Part shown: piece by piece, positions 46,892 to 61,973 of the stretch
Numbering within the stretch: the first letter of the stretch is position 1
Layout: every line of letters begins with the position of its first letter
NCBI RefSeq assembly: GCF_008642295.1
Contig: NZ_CP029190.1
Coordinates: 6,927,501 to 6,991,500 of the forward strand
Reading direction: 5' to 3'
Length of the DNA stretch: 64,000 bases
Origin: Streptomyces venezuelae
Lineage (GTDB): Bacteria; Actinomycetota; Actinomycetes; Streptomycetales; Streptomycetaceae
Position numbers and translations under genes: made by a program
The notes under the pieces: model-generated
The model's input: the letters and a program-made list of their open reading frames with translations, nothing else
Database searches by the model: none
What the model was told of the DNA's origin: nothing

Positions 46892-46963
46892 CCCGGCCGG
46901 GAAGGGCATAGCAGAGTCGAAAACCGGTCGACCAGCGAAAATCGACGGTCCAGGGTGAAGTCC

Positions 46964-48031
46964 ATGTCGACCTTGAAAGTCACCGCCGAAGTCCTGACCG
47001 TCCACGAGCATCCCAACGCCGACGCCCTCGAACTGGCCCAGGTGGGCCTCTACCGGGCCGTTGTCGCCAAGGGCCGGTACCGCACCGGGGACATCGCCCT
47101 GTACATACCCGAACAGGCCGTGCTGCCCGAGGCGTTGATCGAGGAGCTGGGCCTGACCGGCCGGCTGGCCGGCAGCGCCGCCAACCGGGTCAAGGCGGTC
47201 CGGCTGCGCGGGGAGCTCTCCCAGGGCCTGGTCTGCCTGCCCGCCGCGCTCAAGGGCACCGATCTGAAGGCGGCGGCCGAGGAGGGCACCGACTTCGCGG
47301 GGCAGTTCGGCATCACCAAATGGGTGCCGCCGGTTCCGACCACCATGAGCGGCGACGTGGAGTCCGCCCCCGATCTGCTGCCCTGGGTCGACATCGAGAA
47401 CCTGCAGCGCTATCCGCACATCTTCGAGCCCGGCGAGCCGGTGGTCCTGACCGAGAAGCTGCACGGTACGGCCTGCCTGCTGACCTACCTCGCCGCGGAG
47501 GGGCGCGTCCTGGTCTCCTCCAAGGGCTTCGGGGGGAAGGGCCTGGCCCTGAAGGAGGAGGAGCGCAACCTGTACTGGCGGGCCGTCCGCGCCCACGGGG
47601 TCCCGGAGGCCGCCGCCCGGCTCGCGGCCCGGCTCGGCGCCACCCGGGTCGGGGTCTTCGGCGAGGTCTTCGGGGCCGGCGTCCAGGACCTGGCGTACGG
47701 GTCGGACGCCCGCACCACCGGACCCGGCTACGCCGTCTTCGACGTGTCCGCCGAGATCGACGGCCAGGTCCGCTGGCTGGACCCGGCCGCGCTGCTCGAC
47801 GGCGAACTGCCCCTGGTACCCCGGTTGTACGAGGGACCGTACGAGCTCGGCACGGTGCTGGAGCTGACCACCGGCCGGGAGACGGTCTCCGGCCGGGAGG
47901 AACACCTGCGCGAGGGCGTGGTCATCCGTCCGGCCACCGAGCGGTACAGCCCGGTGACCGGCGGCCGGGCCATCGCCAAGGCGGTCAGCCCGGCCTACCT
48001 CACCCGCAAGGGCGGCACCGAATACGAGTGA
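46964..48031 (+). CDS. ATP-dependent RNA ligase, DRB0094 type
   Basis: 355-aa RNA ligase. Residues 1-120 form the family's N-terminal OB-like module (LKVTAEVLTVHEHPNADALE, YIPEQAVLPEALIEELGLTG). The nucleotidyltransferase domain follows with motif I TEKLHGT (Lys165 as the adenylated residue), SSKGFGGKG, motif III-like VGVFGEVFGAG, motif IV EGVVIRP and motif V AKAVSPAYL. All catalytic blocks are intact. The Deinococcus enzyme seals 3'-OH/5'-PO4 nicks in RNA, including RNA in duplex with DNA. ATG 46964 is used; GTG 46955 is an alternative. Placed within 5 kb of the RNA-repair operon at 50313-55030. Confidence 0.9.
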   Translation: MSTLKVTAEVLTVHEHPNADALELAQVGLYRAVVAKGRYRTGDIALYIPEQAVLPEALIEELGLTGRLAGSAANRVKAVRLRGELSQGLVCLPAALKGTDLKAAAEEGTDFAGQFGITKWVPPVPTTMSGDVESAPDLLPWVDIENLQRYPHIFEPGEPVVLTEKLHGTACLLTYLAAEGRVLVSSKGFGGKGLALKEEERNLYWRAVRAHGVPEAAARLAARLGATRVGVFGEVFGAGVQDLAYGSDARTTGPGYAVFDVSAEIDGQVRWLDPAALLDGELPLVPRLYEGPYELGTVLELTTGRETVSGREEHLREGVVIRPATERYSPVTGGRAIAKAVSPAYLTRKGGTEYE

Positions 48032-48063
48032 GATACGAGTGAGCGGAGCGAGGTCTCACTCGT
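48024..48063. terminator. Bidirectional hairpin spanning two convergent stop codons
   Basis: ACGAGTGAGA (48024-48033) and TCTCACTCGT (48054-48063) pair perfectly. The left arm contains the RNA ligase stop and the right arm the stop of the radical-SAM-like gene, so the stem can serve both transcripts. Confidence 0.72.
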
Positions 48064-49405
48064 CGTTCGCCGGCAGGCTGTCCATGAAGGAGCTCACCGA
48101 GAACACGGCCCGGCCCGGACCGGCCGGGCCGTAGCCGGGCGGGGAGCTCAGGCCGAACTCCTCCATCGTCGCCCGGTACGACTCCAGCAGCCGGATGTGG
48201 TACTCCAGCGGAGCACCCTGCGGATTGGCCTTGCCCAGCGGGGTGGTGGGCTCCGGGCACCAGGTGGTGAACCGCGGGGTGATCCCGTGCGACATGAAGT
48301 ACCGCAGGCCCTCGGTGGTCGACTCGATCGCCTCGTCCACCGACCGGAAACCGAACGGCTCGGCCATCTCCACGCCCGCGACGAAGTTGGGGATCACATT
48401 GCGCGCGCCGAACACCTCGGCGGACTCCAGGATCCGCCGGTGCCATTCGTCACGTCCGATGTACTGCTCCTTCCCCGGGCAGTACAGCTCGAACAGGCGC
48501 TTGTCCCACACCTCGTAGTTGGGGTGGTAGATCCGCACCCCGTAGTCGTAGAAGCGCTGGACGTCCTCGCGGGGCAGCGCCTGCGCGACCACCTTGCCGG
48601 TCCACCGGCCCGGGAACCGCTCCTCGATGGCCTTCGCGTACTGGCCGTAGAAATCGGCCTCGTCCTTGCCGCCGACCTGGGAGGTGATGGCCCCGCCGGT
48701 CAGCGTGTAGGCCTTGGACGCCTTGGCGGTGTCGTACCTGTCGATGATCTCCAGGGCCTCGAGGATCTCGTCGAGCTGCTTGACCCCGGTGTAGGGGCGG
48801 CCGGCCGCCTTGTGCTGGCGCCAGTTGTGGTTGATGTCGCAGTACTGGCACTCCTGCTTGGCGCCGAAGTACTGGCAGACCCGGAACACCGTCAGGTAGA
48901 TCAGGTAGCCCCACTGGATGGTGGGGGCCACCTCCATCACGGACTTCCCGTTGGACAGCTTGTGCCGGTAGTACTCCGGCATCGGCGGCAGCCCGACATC
49001 GGCGATCCGTACGCCGTCCAGCCACAGCCCGAGCATGCCGTCCTCGCCCGCCGCGACCCGGTACGGGGAGGCGGGGTTCACCCGGACGGACACCACGGTG
49101 CGGCGCAGGCCGTACGGGCCGCCGGTGAGCACGATCTCCTCCGGCGGGCGGCGCAGGGCCGCGGCGCCCAGTTCGGGCAGGGTGCGGTGGTCGAAGGAGA
49201 AGATGAAGTACGACTTGGGCTTGACGTCGCCCGCCTCGTTGTCGCTGAGCGCGGATTCGTCGAAGGCGATGCCCCCGCGGAGCAGGTCCTCCTTGATCAC
49301 CGCTTCCCGTGGTACCTGTGGGAAGCGCGCCATCAGCGACTCGATCATGTCGGTGCGGCGCTCGGCGTCGGGGGTGTGCGGCGTGGGTGCGATGTCTCCG
49401 GTCAC
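48056..49405 (-). CDS. Radical-SAM-like protein with unusual cysteine spacing
   Basis: 449-aa protein annotated here as radical-SAM-like because of a cysteine cluster followed by TIM-barrel-like strands (AYTLTGGAITSQVGGKDEAD, VVAQALPREDVQRFYDYGVR, NVIPNFVAGVEMAEPFGF). The presumed iron-sulfur ligands are CQYFGAKQECQYC: eight residues separate the first two cysteines, not three. Upstream there is a 150-residue N-terminal domain (KPKSYFIFSFDHRTLPEL). GTG 49405 directly follows GGAGGG; ATG 49348 is an alternative. The substrate is unknown. It ends opposite the RNA ligase. Confidence 0.72.
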   Translation of the reverse strand: MTGDIAPTPHTPDAERRTDMIESLMARFPQVPREAVIKEDLLRGGIAFDESALSDNEAGDVKPKSYFIFSFDHRTLPELGAAALRRPPEEIVLTGGPYGLRRTVVSVRVNPASPYRVAAGEDGMLGLWLDGVRIADVGLPPMPEYYRHKLSNGKSVMEVAPTIQWGYLIYLTVFRVCQYFGAKQECQYCDINHNWRQHKAAGRPYTGVKQLDEILEALEIIDRYDTAKASKAYTLTGGAITSQVGGKDEADFYGQYAKAIEERFPGRWTGKVVAQALPREDVQRFYDYGVRIYHPNYEVWDKRLFELYCPGKEQYIGRDEWHRRILESAEVFGARNVIPNFVAGVEMAEPFGFRSVDEAIESTTEGLRYFMSHGITPRFTTWCPEPTTPLGKANPQGAPLEYHIRLLESYRATMEEFGLSSPPGYGPAGPGRAVFSVSSFMDSLPANDE

Positions 49406-53165: not shown

Positions 53166-55030
53166 CAGTTCCTCACACCCAACTCGGCCCACTCGGCCCA
53201 TTCGCCGCACTCGTCCAGGCCGCCCGCCCGGTCCTCGATCCTGCCGTCCGGTCCGGCGTACCAGGTGCGGTGCGCCCGCCCCGGATACGGCGGAGCGAAC
53301 CGGCGCAGCTGCCCGGCCAGCACCGCCGCGGGCACCGGATGCGGCCGGACGCCGTTGCGCCGGACCAGTTCCTCCTCGTCCACCACCAGCACCAGCTGGG
53401 TGACCAGGGCGTTGTGCCGCTCGGCCACGCCCAGCACCGGCCCGCGCTGCCGGTCGGTCAGCGAGGTGGCGTCCCACACCACTGTGCCCCCGCCGGCCAG
53501 GGCGCTGTCCAGCCGGTCCAGACCGGCCCGCAGCACCTCCGCGTTGGCCCGCTGGTCCGCCCGGTCCCCCCGCTCGGCGCGCAGCTCGTCCATGGATACG
53601 TACGCGTCCACGCCCGGCAGGGCGCGGGCCACGGTGCTCTTGCCGCTGCCCGAGGGGCCGACCAGCTGGATCAGCCGGGGGAACGCCCCGTCCCGCCACC
53701 GCCAGGTCGCCGCGACCGCCTCGGCCACGGTGGAGATCCGGCCCCGGGCGTACGCCTCCCGGGCCTCCGCCCAGCACCGGTCGGCGGCCTCGGGGTCCAG
53801 CCCGGCCAGGGCCTCGCGCAGTCCGGCGCGCAGCGGCTCCAGCGGCGGGCCGGCCAGCAGCCCCGCGTCCTCGGCGTACAGCTCGGACCACTCCAGGTTG
53901 GCGCGCGCCTCGGCGGCCTCCGGGCCGGTACGCCCGGCCAGGGCGGCGGCGGACACCGCGTGCAGCAGGCCGGGATCGGCGGCGGAGGCCAGCCGCAGCA
54001 GCCCGGACCGCCGCGCCTCGTCGGGGAACGGGAGGTGCAGCAGCGGATGCAGGCCGACCAGGTCGGCGATCCGGCGGGCGAGCGGCAGCCCCAGCGGGAC
54101 GGAGAGCCGCGCCGTCAGCCCGGTCCGGCGGGTGCCGTGCAGGGCAGCCGCGAGGATGCCGGCCAGCCGGGCGTCCCCGGTCGCCCGGAGCAGCCCCAGC
54201 CGGCCGGTGACCTCCTGCACGGCGGCTGCGACGGCCTCCCCGGCCGGCGCCACGTCGTGATCCGCCGGGCCATCCGCTCCGTCATCGGCCGGGCCATCCG
54301 CACCGTCATCCGCCGGGCCGTCCGCCGGCCGGGCCCCGGCCACCCCCGCCGCCGCGAGCAGCGCCGCCGGGTCGGGGTCCGCCCCCGACCGGACGTCCCA
54401 CAGTGCGGCGGCCGGGCCCCGCCCGTTCGCCACCACGGCTGCATGCATCCAGTGGGTGTCGGTCACCACGTGCCCGGCCCGTACCCACTTGGCCACCCGG
54501 GCCCCGAACTCGGCCTGCCCGAAGCCCTCGACGGTCCGGACCACGTACCCCTCGCAGCGGGTGGTGTCCAGCCGCAGCCGGCGCAGCGCCCGCTCGTCGA
54601 ACACGCCCCGCCACAGCACCCGCGGGACCGGCACCCCCAGCCGGCGCAGGAAGGTGACGGTGGAGTCCCAGTCCAGGCAGCGGCCGGTGTCGTCCCAGAC
54701 CGAGAACCCGTAGAACCAGCTGTCCAGGTCCTCGTACGCCAGGGAGTGCCGGGCGTACAGGTTCTCCCCGCACACCCGCCAGCCCCGCGGGATCCCGGCC
54801 CCGATGCGCCCCTGCAAGCCCTTCACCCAGGCCCGCGACGGATGGTGGCCGGAGTCCAGGGAACGGGCATGCAGCCCGTCCGCGTACAGAGTGGTGTTCT
54901 CCCCGTCGAGCTTCTCGGTGACCACGATCTCGCATCCGGCCAGCCCGGCGAGCCCGGTGCTGCGCACGTCGTCCGAGGAAGCCCCCGGCGACCAGGGCAG
55001 ATGCGGAGTCCGGGGATAGTGCGTACGCAT
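53165..55030 (-). CDS. RNA ligase - polynucleotide kinase fusion
   Basis: 621-aa fusion. The N-terminal ~230 residues are an RNA ligase of the T4 Rnl/AAA-associated type: motif [15 protein letters not shown] (Lys40), [16 protein letters not shown], motif [10 protein letters not shown] and motif [14 protein letters not shown]. An acidic repeat linker ([17 protein letters not shown]) and a ~200-residue helical region follow. The C terminus is a P-loop kinase ([16 protein letters not shown], Lys464; [25 protein letters not shown]), able in principle to phosphorylate RNA 5' ends and remove 3' phosphates' partner ends for sealing. ATG 55030. First gene of the operon, divergent from the hydrolase/caspase pair over 154 bp. 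Confidence 0.88.
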
Positions 55031-55137
55031 GGTGATCTGACCCGACCCGTTCCTGTAAGAGATGCCCCACTGTAGGAATCCACCGGAGGCGGATCCACTC
55101 AATAAGCTCGCTCGGAAGCAGGTGCCGGGACCGGATT

Positions 55138-55184: not shown

Positions 55185-56045
55185 ATGGCGCACGTGGTCT
55201 GTGTCCACGGCATCGGGCAGCAGTTCGGCGGCGAAGAGGAACAGCACGGCCGGTGGTGGCCCGCACTCGCCGACGGCCTGCGGCGGGCCGGCCACGGGGA
55301 CCGGCTGAAGCCGGCCGACGTCACCTGCGTGTTCTACGGTGACCTGTTCCGGCCGCCCGGCCGGGTGCTGTCCGGCCACGAACCGCCCTGGGACGCCGCC
55401 GATGTGGAACCGGAGTTCGAGGCGGAGCTGCTGCGGCTGCTGTGGGCCGAAGCCGCCCGCACCGACCCCGCCGTGGTACCGCCGGACGCGCCCACCCTGG
55501 CCCGCACGCCCCGGTCCGTGCAGCGCGGCCTCGATGCGCTCAGCCGCTCCCGGTTCTTCTCCGGCCTCGCGCAGCGCGCCCTGGTCGCCGACCTCGGACA
55601 GGTCCGGCGGTACTTCTGCGAGCCCGGGATCCGCCCGGCCGTCGCCGACCGGGTCGCCGCCCGCATCGGCCCCGACACCCGTCTGGTGATCGGCCATTCG
55701 CTGGGCAGCGTCGTCGCGTACGAGAACCTTGCCGCGCACCCCGAATGGCCGGTCCGCGCCTTGCTGACGGTCGGCTCCCCGCTGGGCATCCGGAACCTGG
55801 TCTTCGACCGGCTCCGGCTGCCGGCCGGCGGCGCGCCGGGCGACTGGCCCGGCTCCATCGGGCACTGGACCAACATCGCCGACGAGGGCGATGTGGTCGC
55901 CCTGGCCAAGGACCTGCGACCGCTGTTCGGGGACCGGGTCCGCAGCCATCTGGTGCACAACGGCGCGCACGCCCACGACATGGCCCGCTACCTCGACTCC
56001 GCAGCGGCCGGCGCGGCCGTCGCCGATGGCTGCGGACTCCGCTGA
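55185..56045 (+). CDS. PGAP1/lipase-like alpha/beta hydrolase coupled to the caspase-STAND gene
   Basis: 286-aa serine hydrolase-like protein. It starts with VVCVHGIGQQFGG, an oxyanion-hole motif of the PGAP1/esterase type, and has the nucleophile elbow VIGHSLGSVVAYENL with Ser172. A later Asp (HWTNIADEGDVVAL) and the His in NGAHAHDMARYL complete a plausible triad. No signal peptide, so it acts in the cytoplasm. ATG 55185 has AGGGGG upstream. The 3' end overlaps the next gene by 20 bp, indicating coupled translation and a functional link. As a partner of a caspase-NTPase it may be an effector (membrane lipid or small-molecule cleavage) or a processor. Confidence 0.86.
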   Translation: MAHVVCVHGIGQQFGGEEEQHGRWWPALADGLRRAGHGDRLKPADVTCVFYGDLFRPPGRVLSGHEPPWDAADVEPEFEAELLRLLWAEAARTDPAVVPPDAPTLARTPRSVQRGLDALSRSRFFSGLAQRALVADLGQVRRYFCEPGIRPAVADRVAARIGPDTRLVIGHSLGSVVAYENLAAHPEWPVRALLTVGSPLGIRNLVFDRLRLPAGGAPGDWPGSIGHWTNIADEGDVVALAKDLRPLFGDRVRSHLVHNGAHAHDMARYLDSAAAGAAVADGCGLR

Positions 56046-59000
56046 CCGCCCGCGCCGCTTCGTGCTGGCCACGGCGGTCGCCCGGATCGCCGGGCATCCC
56101 GAGTACGACGTACCCGAACTCGCCGGTGACGTCAGCCGGATGACCGGACTCTTCACGGAACTGGGCTACGAGCCGGTCACCCCACCGGGGACGTCCCCCG
56201 CCCCCGGCCCGAGTCCGAGCCCTGGCCCGGGCTCGGCGGCCGGGTCCGAGCCGCGGATCTGGCTCGACCCCACCCGCGCCGAGCTCACCCGTGCCCTCCG
56301 GGCCTTCTGCACCGACCCCGCCCGCCGCCCCGACGACTACCTGGTCTGCTACGTTGCCGCCCACGGCGCGGTGGCACCCTCCAGCGGGGTCCACTACCTG
56401 ATGCTCGCCGACACCGACCCCGAGGACCTGCGCGGCACCGCCCTGCCCACCGCCGACCTGGTCTCCCTGATCTGGGAGGACACCCCGCTCGAGCGGGTCC
56501 TGCTGCTCCTCGACTGCTGCAACGCCGAGGCCGGTACCGACGACGCCCTGCACGCCGCCCTCCAGGCCCGCCGGTTCCGCACCCCGGTCGGCCCGGCCGG
56601 CCCGGCCGCCCGGGCCGGAGCGGACGGCGGACCCGGCGAACCGCACACCACCGGCCTCGCCCTGATCGCCGCCTCCCGCCGCAAGGACGTCACCCGCCCG
56701 GGCGCCCTGCCCGCCGCCTTCGAACGCGCCGTCCGCAGCGGCGCCACCGCAGGCCGCGCACCCGCCGCCATCAGCCTCGAACACGTCATGGCCGCCGTCA
56801 GCACCGACCCGCAGGTCCCCGAATGGCAGCGGCCCGTCTGGTCCCTCGGCCAGGCATCCGCCGCCATCCCCGACTTCCTGCCCAACCCCTGGTACGTCCC
56901 GGGCGCCGCCGACCTCAAGGTCGACGAGATCGACCGGCTCGTCGCACTCCGCTCCCGCGAGCGCACCGCCCGCGGCGAGGAACTCCTCAGCCACTTCCTG
57001 CCCCGGGCGCGCGGCACCGACGTCCCCACCGAGGAGGTCTGGGACTTCACCGGCCGCCACCAGGCCCTGCACGCCACCGCCCGCTGGCTGGACGCCCGCC
57101 CCCACCACCGGCTCTGCGTGGTCACCGGAGACCCCGGCTCCGGCAAGTCCTCCCTGCTCGGCATGGTCACCCTGCTCACCGACCCGGTCCGGGCCGCCGC
57201 CGTGCCCCGGGACCGGCTGCCCGACGGCGACCTGCCCGCACCCGGAGCGGTCCACGCCGCCGTGCACGCCGGCCACAAGTCCACCCGGCAGCTGCTCGAC
57301 GCGATCGCCGCCGCCGCGGACTGCGCCGCCGACACCCTCGGCACCCTCACCGCCGCCCTGCAACGCCGTGCCGAGCCCCTGATCATCCTCGTCGACTCGG
57401 TGGACGAGGCCCTCGATCCGCGCGGCGCCACCGACGAGCTGCTCCTCCCGCTCGCCGACCCCGAACTCGGCCTCCCGCTGCGGCTGCTGCTCGGCGCCCG
57501 CCGGCACGTCGCCCGGCGGCTGCCCTCCTCGGCCCTGTGTATCGACCTCGACGAGGAGGAGTACGCCGACCCGCTCGCGGTCCGCGCGTACGCGCGCACC
57601 CTGCTCACCGGGCCCGGTTCCGTGCTGGCCGCCGCCGACCCGCAGCGCGTGGACGCGGTCGCCGAGGCCATCGCCGAAGCCGCCGGCCGGTCCTTCCTCG
57701 TCGCCCGGATCACCGCCCGTACCGTCGCCCGAGAGATCCGCGTCCCCGACCCGGCGGACCAGGCCTGGCGGGACGCCCTGCCCCGGCTGCCCGGCGAGGC
57801 CATGGAACGCGACCTCCGCCAGCGGCTCGGCGACCGCGCCGGCACCGCCCGCGACCTGCTGGTGCCGCTCGCCTTCGCGCAGGGTGTCGGCCTGCCCTGG
57901 GCGGGGATCTGGCCCCAGCTGGCCACCGCCCTGGCCGGCCGCCCGTACGGGGACGCCGACCTGTTCCGGCTCCGGGACGAAGCCGGTTCCTACATGGTCG
58001 AGAGCGTCGAGGACGGCGGCTCCGTCTACCGCGTCTACCACCGCGCCCTGATCGAGTACCTGCGGGAGGGCCGGGACGAACGCGCCGTCGAGGCGACCGT
58101 CACCGCCGTCCTGCGGGCCGCCGTCGACCGCCACCGGGGTGGCTGGCGCTCCGCCCACCCGTACGTACGCCGCTATCTGGCCCTGCACGCGGGCGCGGCC
58201 GGGGTCCTCGACGAGCTCGTCCAGGACGCCGAGTTCGTACTGGCCTGCGCCCCCGGCCAGCTGATGGCCGCACTGCCCGGGCTGCACACCCCGGCCGGCC
58301 GCCGGGCGGGCGCAGCCGTACGGGAACGCGAGGCCGAACTCCGCGGCCTGGAGGGCCGCCCCGGCACCCCGGAGGCCCGCGCCCGGCTCCGGCTGGCCGC
58401 CGTCTGCCGGGGCGCCGCGGCCCTCGCCGACTCCTGCGACCCGGCACCGGGGGAGGAGCGGCCGGAGTGGCGGGCCCGCTGGGCGGTGTGGAACCCGCAC
58501 GGCGGCAAACGGGACTACGCAGGGGTGTCGGACTGGAACGGGCTGGTGGTGCCGCGGGCCGGCGGCGGCGCGGACTTCTGCGGCCTGCGGGACGCGCGGA
58601 CCCTCTTCCGGTGCGACCTGGATTCGGGGGAACAGCCCGCCGATGCCCAACTGTGGGGGCCGCAATGGCTGCGGAGGGGGCCGTGGGCGGTGCTGCCCGG
58701 GCAGCGGGGCCGGGCAGCCGTAGTGCTCGACGACTTCATTCCGAAGCCACCGGAGGACAGCTCACCGCCCTATGGCCGGCGGACCCCGCGCGTCGAATCC
58801 GCCTGGGAGCTTCGGGTGTTGGACGTCCGGAGCGGTGACATGACGTCCTGGCGGCTGCCGCTGCCGCCCGGCGAGCCCGCCTCCGTGCAGCGCACTCCCC
58901 TGGACGTGGCGGTCGTCCCCGGCCGAGGTGACACCGGCCTCGCGATCCTGCGGGTCTCACCCACCCAGCTGTTCGCCTACCGCCTCGGCAGCCGTCCCGG

Positions 59001-61734
59001 GCGGCCGGGGCTCACCCGTGCGATGGACCGAGTCGGGGACGACTACGAACGGCAGCAGGCCCAGGAACGGTCCTACCAGCGTGCCGCCGTGCTGCTCCAT
59101 TCTCTGGGCAACGCCACCGGCCCGGTCTCGGTGTGTGCCGTGCCGGACGGTCTGCCGGAGGGCACCTTCCTGCTGGGCCTGACCGACGGCGATGTGGTGA
59201 AGGTCAACGCGTTCCTCGAGCACGGTATGACGACCACGCCCATCCCCAGTTCCCACCGGTCCGAGGTGCTCGCCATGGCGGTGATCCACCCGCATCCGCT
59301 GGGGCGGCTGCTGGTGTCGGGCGGGCGCGACGGGCGGGTGCAGATCACCCCGATGAGTTCCTCCTCGGAGGAGCCCGCACGGACCGTGCTGAAGTGGCCC
59401 TACGTCGTCACCTCGGTGGCCGTCCTGCGGTCGGACCGGCAGTGGCTGATCGCCGCCGCCACCGCCGACGGCCTTGTCCACCGCATCGATGTCGAAAGCG
59501 GCCGTCCCATTGGACGTCCGCTGCACGTCGGCCGGTGGGGCGGACGGCTGTCGGCCTTCCGGATCGGTGTGACGGACTGCGTGGCCGTCTGGGACGGCGG
59601 TCGCGGCCTCCAGCTCTACGACCTGGTCTCCGGAGAGCGCATCGGCGGCCAGGAGGACGCGCACGAGGTGTGGGCCCTGGCCCGGGTGGACGGCATCCGG
59701 AGCCTCGGCGGATCGGACGGCATCGTCCGGCTGCTGCCCACCCCGCACGCCGTCGACGCACAGCAATTCGTCGCGCACGACCGGCCCGTGCTCGCCCTCG
59801 GCGAGATCCGTGGGCCCGCCGGTGTCCCCTGTCTGATCAGCGTGGGAGCCGACCTCGGGATCCGCTGCTGGGATCCCGGCCGGCGGGCCGAACTTTGGAC
59901 CCGCCCGGCCGAGCCGCTGCCCCCGGGCATCACGGAACGGACGGACTCCCTCGCCCACGCCGTGTGCGGCCGGACCGCGGACGGCCTCGACTACGTGGCG
60001 ACCACCCGGTACGTGGGCCTCGGCCGGGTCCGGATCCTGCTGCTGGACGCCGGAGTGCCGGTGCGCGAGCAGGAGTTCACCGCGCCCGGCCCGGTCACGG
60101 CGCTGTGCGCCGGCCGGGTCCGCGGCCGGGACGTGGTGGTGGCGGGCACCGACGACGGGCGGATCCTGTGCTGGGACCTGGCGGACGGCGGACGCCCGTT
60201 CGGGCAGAACCCGCCGGCCGCCGACGGCGGGGCGGCCGGCCCGTGGATCACCGCGCTCGCCCTCGCCCCGGACGGCTCGGGCCGGCTCGCGGGCGGCGCC
60301 GGCGACGGCACCCTGCGCCTGTGGTGCCTGCCCGGCGGGCGGCTGCTGTCCGACCCGGTGGCCGCCCACCGGCGCCCGGTCACGGCCCTGTCCTTCGTCA
60401 CGGCCGACGGCCCGGATCTGTGGCTGGCGAGTGCGGGGGACGACCACCGGCTGGCCGTCCACGAGCCGGACGGACGCGGGGTGCTGCATCCGGTGTGGGA
60501 GCGCCGGACCGACCGCCGCATCCGCTCCCTGTATTCCGAGGACCGCGGACTCGCCTGCGGCGACGAAGGGGGCGGCATGTTCCTGCTCGTCCGGGAGCCG
60601 GGCGGCGGCTGGACCCTGACGGACGGCCGGGAACCGGTCCCCTCCGGACTCGCCGTCGCCACCACCTCCCTCGGCGGCCGGCCGGTCTGTGTCTCCCCGG
60701 ACGCCCGGGACGGGCTGCTGGTGCACGACCTGGCCGACGGTGCGACCGTACGGCGTCTGGCCTCCGCCTGCGGCAGCGGCTATCGCGCGGTGGCCGCGGC
60801 CCGTAGGCACCCGGCCGGCGCACTCGTCGTCGCCCGGAACCACCACGGGCTGCTGGAACGCTGGGACTTCACCGATTCGGCGGCGCTCGCCCCGGCCGGA
60901 ACTCCGCTGCGGCTCTCGGCCCCGCACGAGAAGGGACCGGGCGGCAAGCGACTGACCGCACTGCCGGACCCGGCGGGGGAGACGGAGGACCTGTTCTCCC
61001 TCTCGGCCGGCCGCGGCTTCCTTGCCGTCGAGGACCTGGAGAGCGGCCCGCTGTTGCATCAGATGCTGTGGGCCGGCAGACACCGTGGGCTGCACGCCCT
61101 GCGCCCGGAACCCGTACCGGTACACCCGCACCGGTTGGGTTACGACGCGTTCCGGCTCCGGTTCTCCGTGCTGCGCGATGCCTGGGTCGTACGCTGCGGC
61201 GGCCACACCTTCGGGTTCGCGGAGACGGCCCAGGGGGTATGGCTCGCCGACCCGTACACCGGCCGGTGGGCCCGCGCGCGGCTCGACGGGGCCGGGATGC
61301 GGGCGGCGTTCACCGCCGCCCACGACGGTGCTCCGGGGGTGCTCCTGGTCCACGGCGACCGGGCCCGGTTCTATGCGCTGACGGACCTGCTCGCCGCCCT
61401 GGCCCGGCCCGAACCGCCGCTGGAGGGCCTCCGGTTCCTCGGCCGGGAGCGGCTGCTGCGGCGCGGCGGCGGGCCCGTGCTCCGCGCGACCGCGGAGCAT
61501 GCCACCCCGCATGCGGTCCGGCACGCCGCCCCGCTCCCCGGCGGGCACGCGTACGTCGCGGCCGGGACCCGCGAGCTGCACGTCCGCCCGGTGGACGGCG
61601 GGCCGCCCCGCCACAGGGTCGAACTCCCCTCCCCCTGTACCGGCCTCGCCGTCTCCCCGGCCGGCGAGATCGCCGTCGCCACCCGCAACGGGTTGCTGCT
61701 CTTCGACCCGCCGGGGAGCCCCGATCGCCGCTAG
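56026..61734 (+). CDS. Caspase - NACHT/STAND ATPase - WD40-like repeat fusion protein
   Basis: 1902-aa cytoplasmic protein. Residues 1-270 are a caspase-like (C14) peptidase with catalytic His113 (CYVAAHGAVAP) and Cys165 (LLLLDCCNAEAG). A NACHT/STAND NTPase follows: Walker A GDPGSGKSS (Lys374) and Walker B LIILVDSVDEAL (457-461), then a helical region (FRLRDEAGSYMVESVEDGGS, VYRVYHRALIEYLREGRDE). From ~830 onward are many WD40/PQQ-like repeats (LLVSGGRDGRVQITPMSSSS, LGGSDGIVRLLPTP, VVVAGTDDGRILCWDLADGG, LAGGAGDGTLRLWCLPGGRL). The repeats are presumed to sense a trigger, the NTPase to oligomerise and the caspase to cut. Long Gly/Pro stretch at ~50-70. ATG 56026 overlaps the hydrolase gene. Confidence 0.9.
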   Translation: MAADSADRPRRFVLATAVARIAGHPEYDVPELAGDVSRMTGLFTELGYEPVTPPGTSPAPGPSPSPGPGSAAGSEPRIWLDPTRAELTRALRAFCTDPARRPDDYLVCYVAAHGAVAPSSGVHYLMLADTDPEDLRGTALPTADLVSLIWEDTPLERVLLLLDCCNAEAGTDDALHAALQARRFRTPVGPAGPAARAGADGGPGEPHTTGLALIAASRRKDVTRPGALPAAFERAVRSGATAGRAPAAISLEHVMAAVSTDPQVPEWQRPVWSLGQASAAIPDFLPNPWYVPGAADLKVDEIDRLVALRSRERTARGEELLSHFLPRARGTDVPTEEVWDFTGRHQALHATARWLDARPHHRLCVVTGDPGSGKSSLLGMVTLLTDPVRAAAVPRDRLPDGDLPAPGAVHAAVHAGHKSTRQLLDAIAAAADCAADTLGTLTAALQRRAEPLIILVDSVDEALDPRGATDELLLPLADPELGLPLRLLLGARRHVARRLPSSALCIDLDEEEYADPLAVRAYARTLLTGPGSVLAAADPQRVDAVAEAIAEAAGRSFLVARITARTVAREIRVPDPADQAWRDALPRLPGEAMERDLRQRLGDRAGTARDLLVPLAFAQGVGLPWAGIWPQLATALAGRPYGDADLFRLRDEAGSYMVESVEDGGSVYRVYHRALIEYLREGRDERAVEATVTAVLRAAVDRHRGGWRSAHPYVRRYLALHAGAAGVLDELVQDAEFVLACAPGQLMAALPGLHTPAGRRAGAAVREREAELRGLEGRPGTPEARARLRLAAVCRGAAALADSCDPAPGEERPEWRARWAVWNPHGGKRDYAGVSDWNGLVVPRAGGGADFCGLRDARTLFRCDLDSGEQPADAQLWGPQWLRRGPWAVLPGQRGRAAVVLDDFIPKPPEDSSPPYGRRTPRVESAWELRVLDVRSGDMTSWRLPLPPGEPASVQRTPLDVAVVPGRGDTGLAILRVSPTQLFAYRLGSRPGRPGLTRAMDRVGDDYERQQAQERSYQRAAVLLHSLGNATGPVSVCAVPDGLPEGTFLLGLTDGDVVKVNAFLEHGMTTTPIPSSHRSEVLAMAVIHPHPLGRLLVSGGRDGRVQITPMSSSSEEPARTVLKWPYVVTSVAVLRSDRQWLIAAATADGLVHRIDVESGRPIGRPLHVGRWGGRLSAFRIGVTDCVAVWDGGRGLQLYDLVSGERIGGQEDAHEVWALARVDGIRSLGGSDGIVRLLPTPHAVDAQQFVAHDRPVLALGEIRGPAGVPCLISVGADLGIRCWDPGRRAELWTRPAEPLPPGITERTDSLAHAVCGRTADGLDYVATTRYVGLGRVRILLLDAGVPVREQEFTAPGPVTALCAGRVRGRDVVVAGTDDGRILCWDLADGGRPFGQNPPAADGGAAGPWITALALAPDGSGRLAGGAGDGTLRLWCLPGGRLLSDPVAAHRRPVTALSFVTADGPDLWLASAGDDHRLAVHEPDGRGVLHPVWERRTDRRIRSLYSEDRGLACGDEGGGMFLLVREPGGGWTLTDGREPVPSGLAVATTSLGGRPVCVSPDARDGLLVHDLADGATVRRLASACGSGYRAVAAARRHPAGALVVARNHHGLLERWDFTDSAALAPAGTPLRLSAPHEKGPGGKRLTALPDPAGETEDLFSLSAGRGFLAVEDLESGPLLHQMLWAGRHRGLHALRPEPVPVHPHRLGYDAFRLRFSVLRDAWVVRCGGHTFGFAETAQGVWLADPYTGRWARARLDGAGMRAAFTAAHDGAPGVLLVHGDRARFYALTDLLAALARPEPPLEGLRFLGRERLLRRGGGPVLRATAEHATPHAVRHAAPLPGGHAYVAAGTRELHVRPVDGGPPRHRVELPSPCTGLAVSPAGEIAVATRNGLLLFDPPGSPDRR

Positions 61735-61769: not shown

Positions 61770-61973
61770 ATGGCCAAGGTCAACATCAGCCTGGATGCCG
61801 AGCTGGTCGTGGAGGTGATGGTGCTCGCCGGAGTCGGGTCACCGCAGGACGCCGTCGAGGCCGTCGTGCGCGACTACATTGCGCGGAGCCACCGGACCGA
61901 GGCCCGCGTCGAACTCAAGGACCACCAGCGCCACCGGCCCGACCTCCGCAACCGGGACGTCCAGGAGGGCTGA
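61770..61973 (+). CDS. Small RHH/VapB-like antitoxin-type protein
   Basis: 67-aa protein: AKVNISLDAELVVEVMVLAG then SPQDAVEAVVRDYIARSHRT, matching the ribbon-helix-helix N terminus of VapB-type/DUF2191 antitoxins, and a charged tail (ELKDHQRHRPDLRNRDVQEG). ATG 61770 follows GAGGAGGGGG, an excellent ribosome-binding site. It lies 35 bp after the caspase-STAND gene on the same strand, with no PIN-type toxin gene next to it, so it is either an orphan antitoxin or the regulator of the upstream operon. Confidence 0.75.
   Translation: MAKVNISLDAELVVEVMVLAGVGSPQDAVEAVVRDYIARSHRTEARVELKDHQRHRPDLRNRDVQEG

Follow-up and report, generated by a model that had tools for sequence, protein, structure and literature searches.

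In a 64,000-nucleotide stretch of the Streptomyces venezuelae genome (hereafter the window; 6.93-6.99 Mb of a single 7.5-Mb contig), the gene for an alpha/beta-hydrolase overlaps the gene for a large caspase-STAND-WD40 protein, and we propose that the two genes may form one cell-death or defence module in which the caspase controls the action of a lipase. We put the probability of this reading, which is drawn from sequence comparisons, at about one half. The comparisons show that the two genes are linked in either order, that the active sites of both partners are intact, and that the partners diverge in a correlated manner. In addition, the hydrolase partner follows the caspase domain and not the STAND domain, and an LCAT-type lipase can replace the hydrolase family of the window. 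The coordinates of the features are given in Table 1.

Table 1. Features of the two-gene locus; positions are counted from the first nucleotide of the window.
Feature	Position	Strand	Remarks
Alpha/beta-hydrolase gene	55185..56045	+	286 aa; PGAP1/LCAT-like, HGIG...HSLGS; ATG at 55185, stop codon ends at 56045
Ser172 (nucleophile, GHSLGS)	55698-55700	+	
Asp236 (triad)	55890-55892	+	
His264 (triad)	55974-55976	+	
Two-gene overlap	56026..56045	+	exactly 20 bp
Caspase-STAND-WD40 gene	56026..61734	+	1902 aa; ATG at 56026 inside the hydrolase gene
Caspase (metacaspase-like) region, residues 10-290	56053..56895	+	Peptidase_C14; metacaspase-4 match
His113 (AAHG)	56362-56364	+	
Cys165 (LDCC)	56518-56520	+	Asp163 two residues before
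STAND NTPase region, residues 335-700	57028..58125	+	
Walker A Lys374 (GDPGSGKS)	57145-57147	+	
C-terminal WD40-like beta-propeller region, residues 860-1902	58603..61731	+	probable sensor

An earlier note on this DNA had described a GHSLGS hydrolase whose end overlaps a 1902-aa protein by 20 bp, and both open reading frames were re-derived with this result. The caspase residues His113 and Cys165, the Walker A/B NTPase and the WD40-like repeats that it had read in the large protein were likewise borne out. The caspase residues lie in AAHG and LDCC motifs of a region that matches Peptidase_C14 in Pfam (24.4 bits against a cut-off of 21.4), and the same region used as a profile matches metacaspase-4 in the PDB (E 1.4e-4), which places it among the caspases. 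The Asp163-x-Cys165 arrangement may reflect a basic P1 specificity, as in metacaspase structures. The NTPase contains both Walker A (GDPGSGKS) and a Walker B-like VDSVDEA (Asp457, Asp460 and Glu461), as a STAND NTPase does; it falls just below the Pfam cut-off for nSTAND1 (26.0 vs 27.1 bits) and below that for NACHT (17.7 vs 26.7 bits). The WD40 model was matched at 43.8 bits (cut-off 27.0), with divergent repeats of which two stretches pass the cut-off singly.

The smaller protein has the nucleophile elbow and the Ser-Asp-His triad of the alpha/beta-hydrolase superfamily. No Pfam model was matched above its cut-off, the best being PGAP1-like (16.6 vs 24.3 bits), and the best PDB match of the hydrolase profile was a carboxylesterase (E 0.12), with lipases and acyl carrier proteins among the others. 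A lipid substrate is suggested by the distant family resemblance to PGAP1 and LCAT. Neither protein contains a hydrophobic stretch resembling a membrane helix (maximum 19-residue hydropathy mean 0.99 for the hydrolase and 1.40 for the large protein). In PADLOC, the hydrolase matched no family and the large protein gave mad3 alone (E 0.075), and membership of the PADLOC anti-phage systems was therefore rejected.

The genome of S. venezuelae contains four clear-scoring hydrolases of this family (and one weak one), each adjoining a caspase-STAND gene. The order is hydrolase-caspase in the window and in L015, caspase-hydrolase in L014 and divergent in L016, and a fifth caspase-STAND gene (L017) has no hydrolase beside it. 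Across 246 genomes of the genus, a listed caspase-STAND gene adjoins 31 of the 34 listed hydrolases that score 300 bits or more and 62 of the 69 that score 170 bits or more, counts that refer to related sequences and not to independent events. Conversely, among the matches listed for the caspase-STAND profile A2 (built from 13 loci, 12 of them paired; four candidates scored per genome and the best 150 matches listed), 30 of 32 caspase-STANDs of at least 600 bits adjoin a listed hydrolase, as do 60 of 90 of at least 300 bits with a hydrolase of the same family. The three hydrolases of at least 300 bits that lack a listed partner are L015, which proved to be paired on inspection, L173, which adjoins a caspase-ATPase gene, and L174, where no partner was seen; the close hydrolases with no caspase match nearby are L159, L174 and, beside an ATPase gene, L178. 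Presence in the genus is patchy (the 246 genomes yielded 34 listed hydrolases that reach 300 bits), and a phylum-wide search at E 1e-40 found matches in 3 of 198 genomes, all Streptomyces, which shows that the close family is far from universal.

Among 66 listed paired hydrolases, the hydrolase gene comes first in 40 and the caspase gene in 16, while 8 pairs are divergent and 2 convergent. The junction is tight: of 120 same-strand pairs (from 125 pairs, the start codons being assigned by script), 104 have an overlap or gap of 30 bases or less, and in 53 the genes overlap by exactly 4 bp.

Among the 80 named loci listed for the hydrolase profile, a caspase match lies no more than 3 kb from the hydrolase in 78, and 76 have both a caspase and the same STAND; the two exceptions for the caspase are L149, on a 3.6-kb contig, and L159. 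These 80 loci are mostly actinobacterial, mainly from Streptomyces and other filamentous actinobacteria, and named pairs from outside the actinobacteria were found in Chitinophaga (L161), Lyngbya (L163) and an acidobacterium (L165). The five closest named relatives (L093-L097) sit in another, largely shared neighbourhood, and thus the window pair stays together with different flanks. Pairs were also found on plasmids, in Leptolyngbya (L284; caspase 143 bits, 4-bp overlap) and in a Rhodococcus plasmid record (L286; caspase 92 bits); on a Sinorhizobium plasmid (L285), a gene annotated as a caspase family protein overlaps a 141-bit hydrolase, and the caspase profile gave no match there. One plasmid copy lies near PIN-domain and recombinase genes. 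No hydrolase match was found in 50,697 phage records; three viral contigs encode relatives, two of them together with a caspase match. On a Streptomyces canus plasmid (L287), the gene for a CHAT protein, which we take to be caspase-like, is divergent from another alpha/beta-hydrolase gene (1-173 and 315-1580), and this is perhaps a further protease-hydrolase pair.

The active sites are conserved in both partners. In 125 non-redundant pairs (window excluded), the hydrolase triad is kept at Ser172 in 124, at Asp236 in 124 and at His264 in 123, and caspase His113, Asp163 and Cys165 are each present in all 125. Lys374 is found in 120/120 rows with a STAND match, Asp460 in 116/120 and Glu461 in 115/120. 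In one locus (L101), the caspase is flanked by two hydrolase copies, of which one is degenerate and the other intact. The invariant or near-invariant residues and the recurrence as a pair indicate that the hydrolase and caspase features read from the sequence are more than chance. The dedicated two-gene pairing proposed in the earlier note is strongly supported, since close caspase-STAND relatives are mostly paired across genomes; it had named two outcomes that would speak against it, caspase-STAND genes nearly always found without the hydrolase and a dyad that is not conserved in homologues, and neither occurred.

The distances among hydrolases and among their caspase partners were compared in 119 pairs, from which we excluded hydrolases below 180 bits and caspases below 60 bits, along with the degenerate L101 copy and seven loci that were truncated or broken, with the caspase and STAND regions cut at fixed residues. 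The two distance matrices correlated with a Pearson coefficient of 0.77, which was reached by none of 1000 permutations, and a Spearman coefficient of 0.85. The same comparison gave similar values, 0.68 and 0.83, for caspase and STAND, which lie in one chain, and 0.65 and 0.79 for hydrolase and STAND, somewhat below the values for hydrolase and caspase. The partial rank correlation of the hydrolase was 0.58 with the caspase given STAND and 0.28 with STAND given the caspase, and the bootstrap range of the hydrolase-caspase minus the hydrolase-STAND correlation (-0.002 to 0.175) just includes zero. When partners were swapped within genomes that have several pairs, the cognate partners were clearly better in 7 of 11 comparisons, one swapped value exceeded one cognate value in three (L014/L015, L015/window and G146), and the remaining one, Nocardia takedensis, was about equal. 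Compared with the 7 closest of 11 relatives, the identity was 65-69% for the hydrolase, 54-58% for the caspase, 59-69% for STAND and 36-44% for the C-terminus; in 18 other pairs, the medians were 65.5, 63.5, 71.5 and 40.5%, respectively. The C-terminal region is therefore the fastest-changing part, which fits the expectation for a sensor.

These results bear on whether two ordinary genes merely happen to be adjacent. Three close hydrolases and nine intact caspase-STANDs do stand unpaired, but chance adjacency is refuted by the recurrence of the pair in different orders, genomes and phyla together with the correlated divergence, and its probability is negligible.

Among the best 150 genus matches listed, an alpha/beta-hydrolase gene adjoins 109 of 118 intact caspase-STANDs; its product is of the same family as that of the window in 65 and an LCAT-type lipase in 44. 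In contrast, no adjacent hydrolase or LCAT was found for any of the 29 STANDs in this set with a trypsin-like protease or no protease, two of which (L244 and L245) lie at a contig end with one side unseen, and none for the one STAND whose caspase Cys is lost (L271). The catalytic Cys region of L271 reads VVDIRLA. The Fisher p of 8e-24 for the association of caspase and partner refers to 110/119 and 0/30, the counts that stood until one row was removed. The nine intact caspase-STANDs with neither partner are L017, L187-L191, L231, L235 and one of the two in L234, a locus in which two caspase-STAND genes stand in tandem behind one LCAT gene.

In the script tally underlying this census, 66 caspase rows had a window-type hydrolase (15 of them taken from the genus adjacency listing), 34 had an LCAT and 8 had neither, and the 42 rows below the caspase score comprised 10 with an LCAT, 1 with a window-type hydrolase and 31 with neither. 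The N-termini of the rows missed by the caspase profile were read by eye: the 10 LCAT rows and one row without carry GHG...[D/E]xC, 10 rows have a trypsin-like stretch (classed without Pfam), and 19 leave no room for a protease, as STAND starts at residue 16-147. Two entries were dropped, namely G250, whose match stops short of the caspase, and the second half of the broken gene G143. For 14 rows, including that of the window, the caspase was taken from the profile-match span and the neighbour from the genus adjacency listing, and the census holds a few identical copies (G113 and G201).

The earlier note had taken the hydrolase for a co-effector or for a substrate activated by the caspase, and either may be right. 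That the partner follows the caspase and not STAND favours a caspase-dependent role of the hydrolase. The two enzymes could instead be parallel effectors, with STAND, once oligomerised, activating its own caspase and independently recruiting the hydrolase, so that neither acts on the other. This would agree with the retention of both active sites in the 125 pairs, with a locus in which a hydrolase accompanies a STAND without caspase (L023), and with a 1705-aa frame that joins NACHT and hydrolase and has a caspase trace of only 13 bits (L184, 9574-14688). It agrees poorly with the 0/29 caspase-less STANDs among the best 150 matches listed, and with the same hydrolase family lying beside caspase-motif VMAP-M2 proteins (L037 and L039) or being fused to trypsin, and we consider parallel action unlikely.

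The LCAT-type partners were assigned from that of L192, the one scanned by Pfam (PF02450, 47 bits against a cut-off of 21), the others being called by comparison with it and with a profile made from 12 such lipases. Of the 44 LCAT partners, 40 have Ser as nucleophile and 4 have Ala, and the caspase His and Cys are kept in all 44 LCAT-paired loci; one LCAT-paired group has Asn-x-Cys instead of Asp-x-Cys in the caspase. An enzyme that is tied to a protease domain, that has a full triad and whose slot can be taken by another lipase family is most simply explained as a downstream effector under the control of the protease. The reverse arrangement, in which the killing is done by the caspase while the hydrolase keeps it inactive or else makes or removes a small acyl or lipid signal, would suit a complete active site, and tight coupling in either gene order is also what a toxin-inhibitor pair might show. 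However, an inhibitor need not keep a catalytic triad, and an LCAT lipase in the same slot better suits a shared enzymatic output than a specific inhibitor; an upstream enzyme or brake is thus rather improbable.

The hydrolase family of the window also occurs beside caspase-motif proteins of another kind. In L036, L037, L039 and L042, a caspase-motif protein and an AAA-like gene follow a hydrolase of about 320-350 aa. The caspase-motif proteins of L037 and L039 match VMAP-M2 (181 and 167 bits, cut-off 27.7), the hydrolases beside them match the hydrolase profile A1 at 134 and 138 bits, and the next gene encodes an AAA_5 domain; Pfam gave no vWA match for the third gene of either locus, that of L039 being helicase-like. 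Judged by the VMAP domain, these two loci are ternary systems of Kaur et al. In the accessible text on these systems, a caspase lies beside an alpha/beta-hydrolase gene and the two were suggested to operate together (Kaur 2020, PMC7159879), so the principle of a caspase beside a hydrolase is already in print. The window pair shares with the vWA-MoxR VMAP systems a caspase-superfamily domain and a neighbouring alpha/beta-hydrolase of the same family; unlike in those systems, its caspase shares one chain with a STAND NTPase and WD40 propellers. Membership of the VMAP ternary systems was rejected because the large protein has no VMAP match in Pfam and no MoxR or vWA gene was found in the seven neighbouring frames scanned.

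Trypsin takes the place beside the hydrolase in a family of fusion proteins from Streptomyces (L185, L186 and L193-L204). Trypsin_2 is fused to a C-terminal hydrolase of the window's family in all 12 long proteins scanned, two further long fusion proteins (L201 and L202) were found by the hydrolase profile, and the hydrolase triad is kept in 14/14 of the fusions. The fusion gene of L185 adjoins a gene for Endonuclease_NS, a DNA/RNA non-specific endonuclease.

Avs and bNACHT defence proteins consist of an N-terminal effector, a STAND NTPase and C-terminal repeats. Such bacterial NACHT/STAND defence proteins are named in the accessible part of PMC10907252; unlike them, the large protein has no notable PADLOC match, scores below the NACHT and nSTAND1 cut-offs and has a second, effector-like gene attached. 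According to the available text of Tuck 2025 (PMC12799240), proteolysis activates a separately encoded effector in the canu, HamM-Hachiman and Avs1 pairs, nucleases with trypsin or caspase partners were shown to be protease-activated, and further effector classes were suggested. The window resembles these pairs, as described there, in combining a separate hydrolytic effector with a protease that is either joined to a sensing or oligomerising protein or encoded next to one, but their effector is a metallo-beta-lactamase-fold nuclease, whereas that of the window is a serine alpha/beta-hydrolase whose activation we infer. Membership of the canu caspase-nuclease systems was rejected, as the partner has an HSLGS serine-hydrolase triad and is not such a nuclease. 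The EACC1 systems, as set out in the accessible text of Kaur et al. 2020, also have two genes with an N-terminal caspase in the 3′ one; the window was not assigned to them, because its 5′ gene is a hydrolase without a membrane-like stretch and the NCBIfam model caspase_w_EACC1 scored 53 vs 140 bits. The domain order of the large protein is that of the metacaspase-NACHT-WD40 proteins in the available part of Asplund-Samuelsson 2012 (PMC3501461), which names hydrolases among metacaspase operon genes in general and none as an alpha/beta-hydrolase partner of the NACHT-WD40 architecture. In the open-access journal text searched (as opposed to paywalled articles, preprints and supplements such as the source data of Kaur 2020), we found no caspase-hydrolase pair with STAND-WD40 or with LCAT, no trypsin fusion and no dependence of the hydrolase on a caspase domain, and by this measure all four features are new here.

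The domains of the large protein follow the order of an NLR (propellers as the sensor, an NTPase for oligomerisation and a protease as the effector), which leads us to propose that it works in the manner of NLRs. The C-terminal WD40 propellers would sense a ligand, the STAND NTPase would then oligomerise, as in NLRs, and oligomerisation would bring the N-terminal metacaspase-like domains together. The caspase domains would activate the cognate alpha/beta-hydrolase, or release it from inhibition, and the hydrolase would attack ester bonds, most likely in membrane lipids, so that the cell is stopped or killed. Alpha/beta-hydrolases are listed as effectors that hydrolyse membrane lipids in the accessible text of Kaur 2021 (PMC8195603). 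A candidate cut-site loop lies around Arg107, with a basic residue in 65% of the 60 sequences that have a residue there; hydrolase residues 103-110 hold Lys or Arg in 58 of 64 sequences, a frequency that many other stretches reach as often.

Architecture and precedent suggest a role in phage defence, with phage as the putative trigger. The module could also serve developmental cell death or competition in multicellular bacteria and not phage defence, given that most of the 80 listed named loci come from Streptomyces and other filamentous actinobacteria and that PADLOC has no model for the module. The fast-changing C-terminus, the patchy presence in the genus and the plasmid copies suit a conflict system, however, and a purely developmental or competitive function seems doubtful to us.

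More broadly, we tentatively propose, at somewhat less than even odds, a widespread bacterial class of caspase-activated lipases. In it, a cognate pro-lipase would be switched on by the metacaspase-like domain of an NLR-like sensor (STAND combined with WD40 or TPR) or of a VMAP module, either of two alpha/beta-hydrolase families could occupy the lipase slot, and trypsin fused to a lipase would form a side branch. If this holds, such systems would parallel caspase-gasdermin death by enzymatic means, hydrolysing lipids instead of forming pores. The published remark on VMAP caspases beside an alpha/beta-hydrolase would become a testable rule, namely that most intact caspases of these families come with a lipase-like partner regardless of the module to which they are joined, whereas the caspase-less STANDs inspected here lack one. 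This rule points to a target of the bacterial caspases in NLR-like proteins, and the small two-gene cassettes are suited to bench work.

The seven flanking frames scanned around the window pair gave matches to RNA ligase/kinase, a weak match to radical SAM and a VapB-like match. Two RNA ligase genes (PF09414) lie upstream of the pair, at 46955-48028 and at 53168-55033, the second joined to a kinase-like AAA_33 domain; between them, on the - strand, is a gene for a radical-SAM-like protein (48059-49405; 19.4 bits, below the cut-off). In the same genome, genes for an RNA ligase (RNA_lig_T4_1) and a PNKP-like kinase-phosphatase lie close to the unpaired caspase-STAND L017 (L017 11897-14037). The presence of RNA ligases near both loci may be due to chance or to a shared repair or defence island. 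Downstream, a gene for a VapB-like antitoxin of 67 aa (61770-61970; 26.2 bits, cut-off 23.4) starts 35 bases past the caspase gene.
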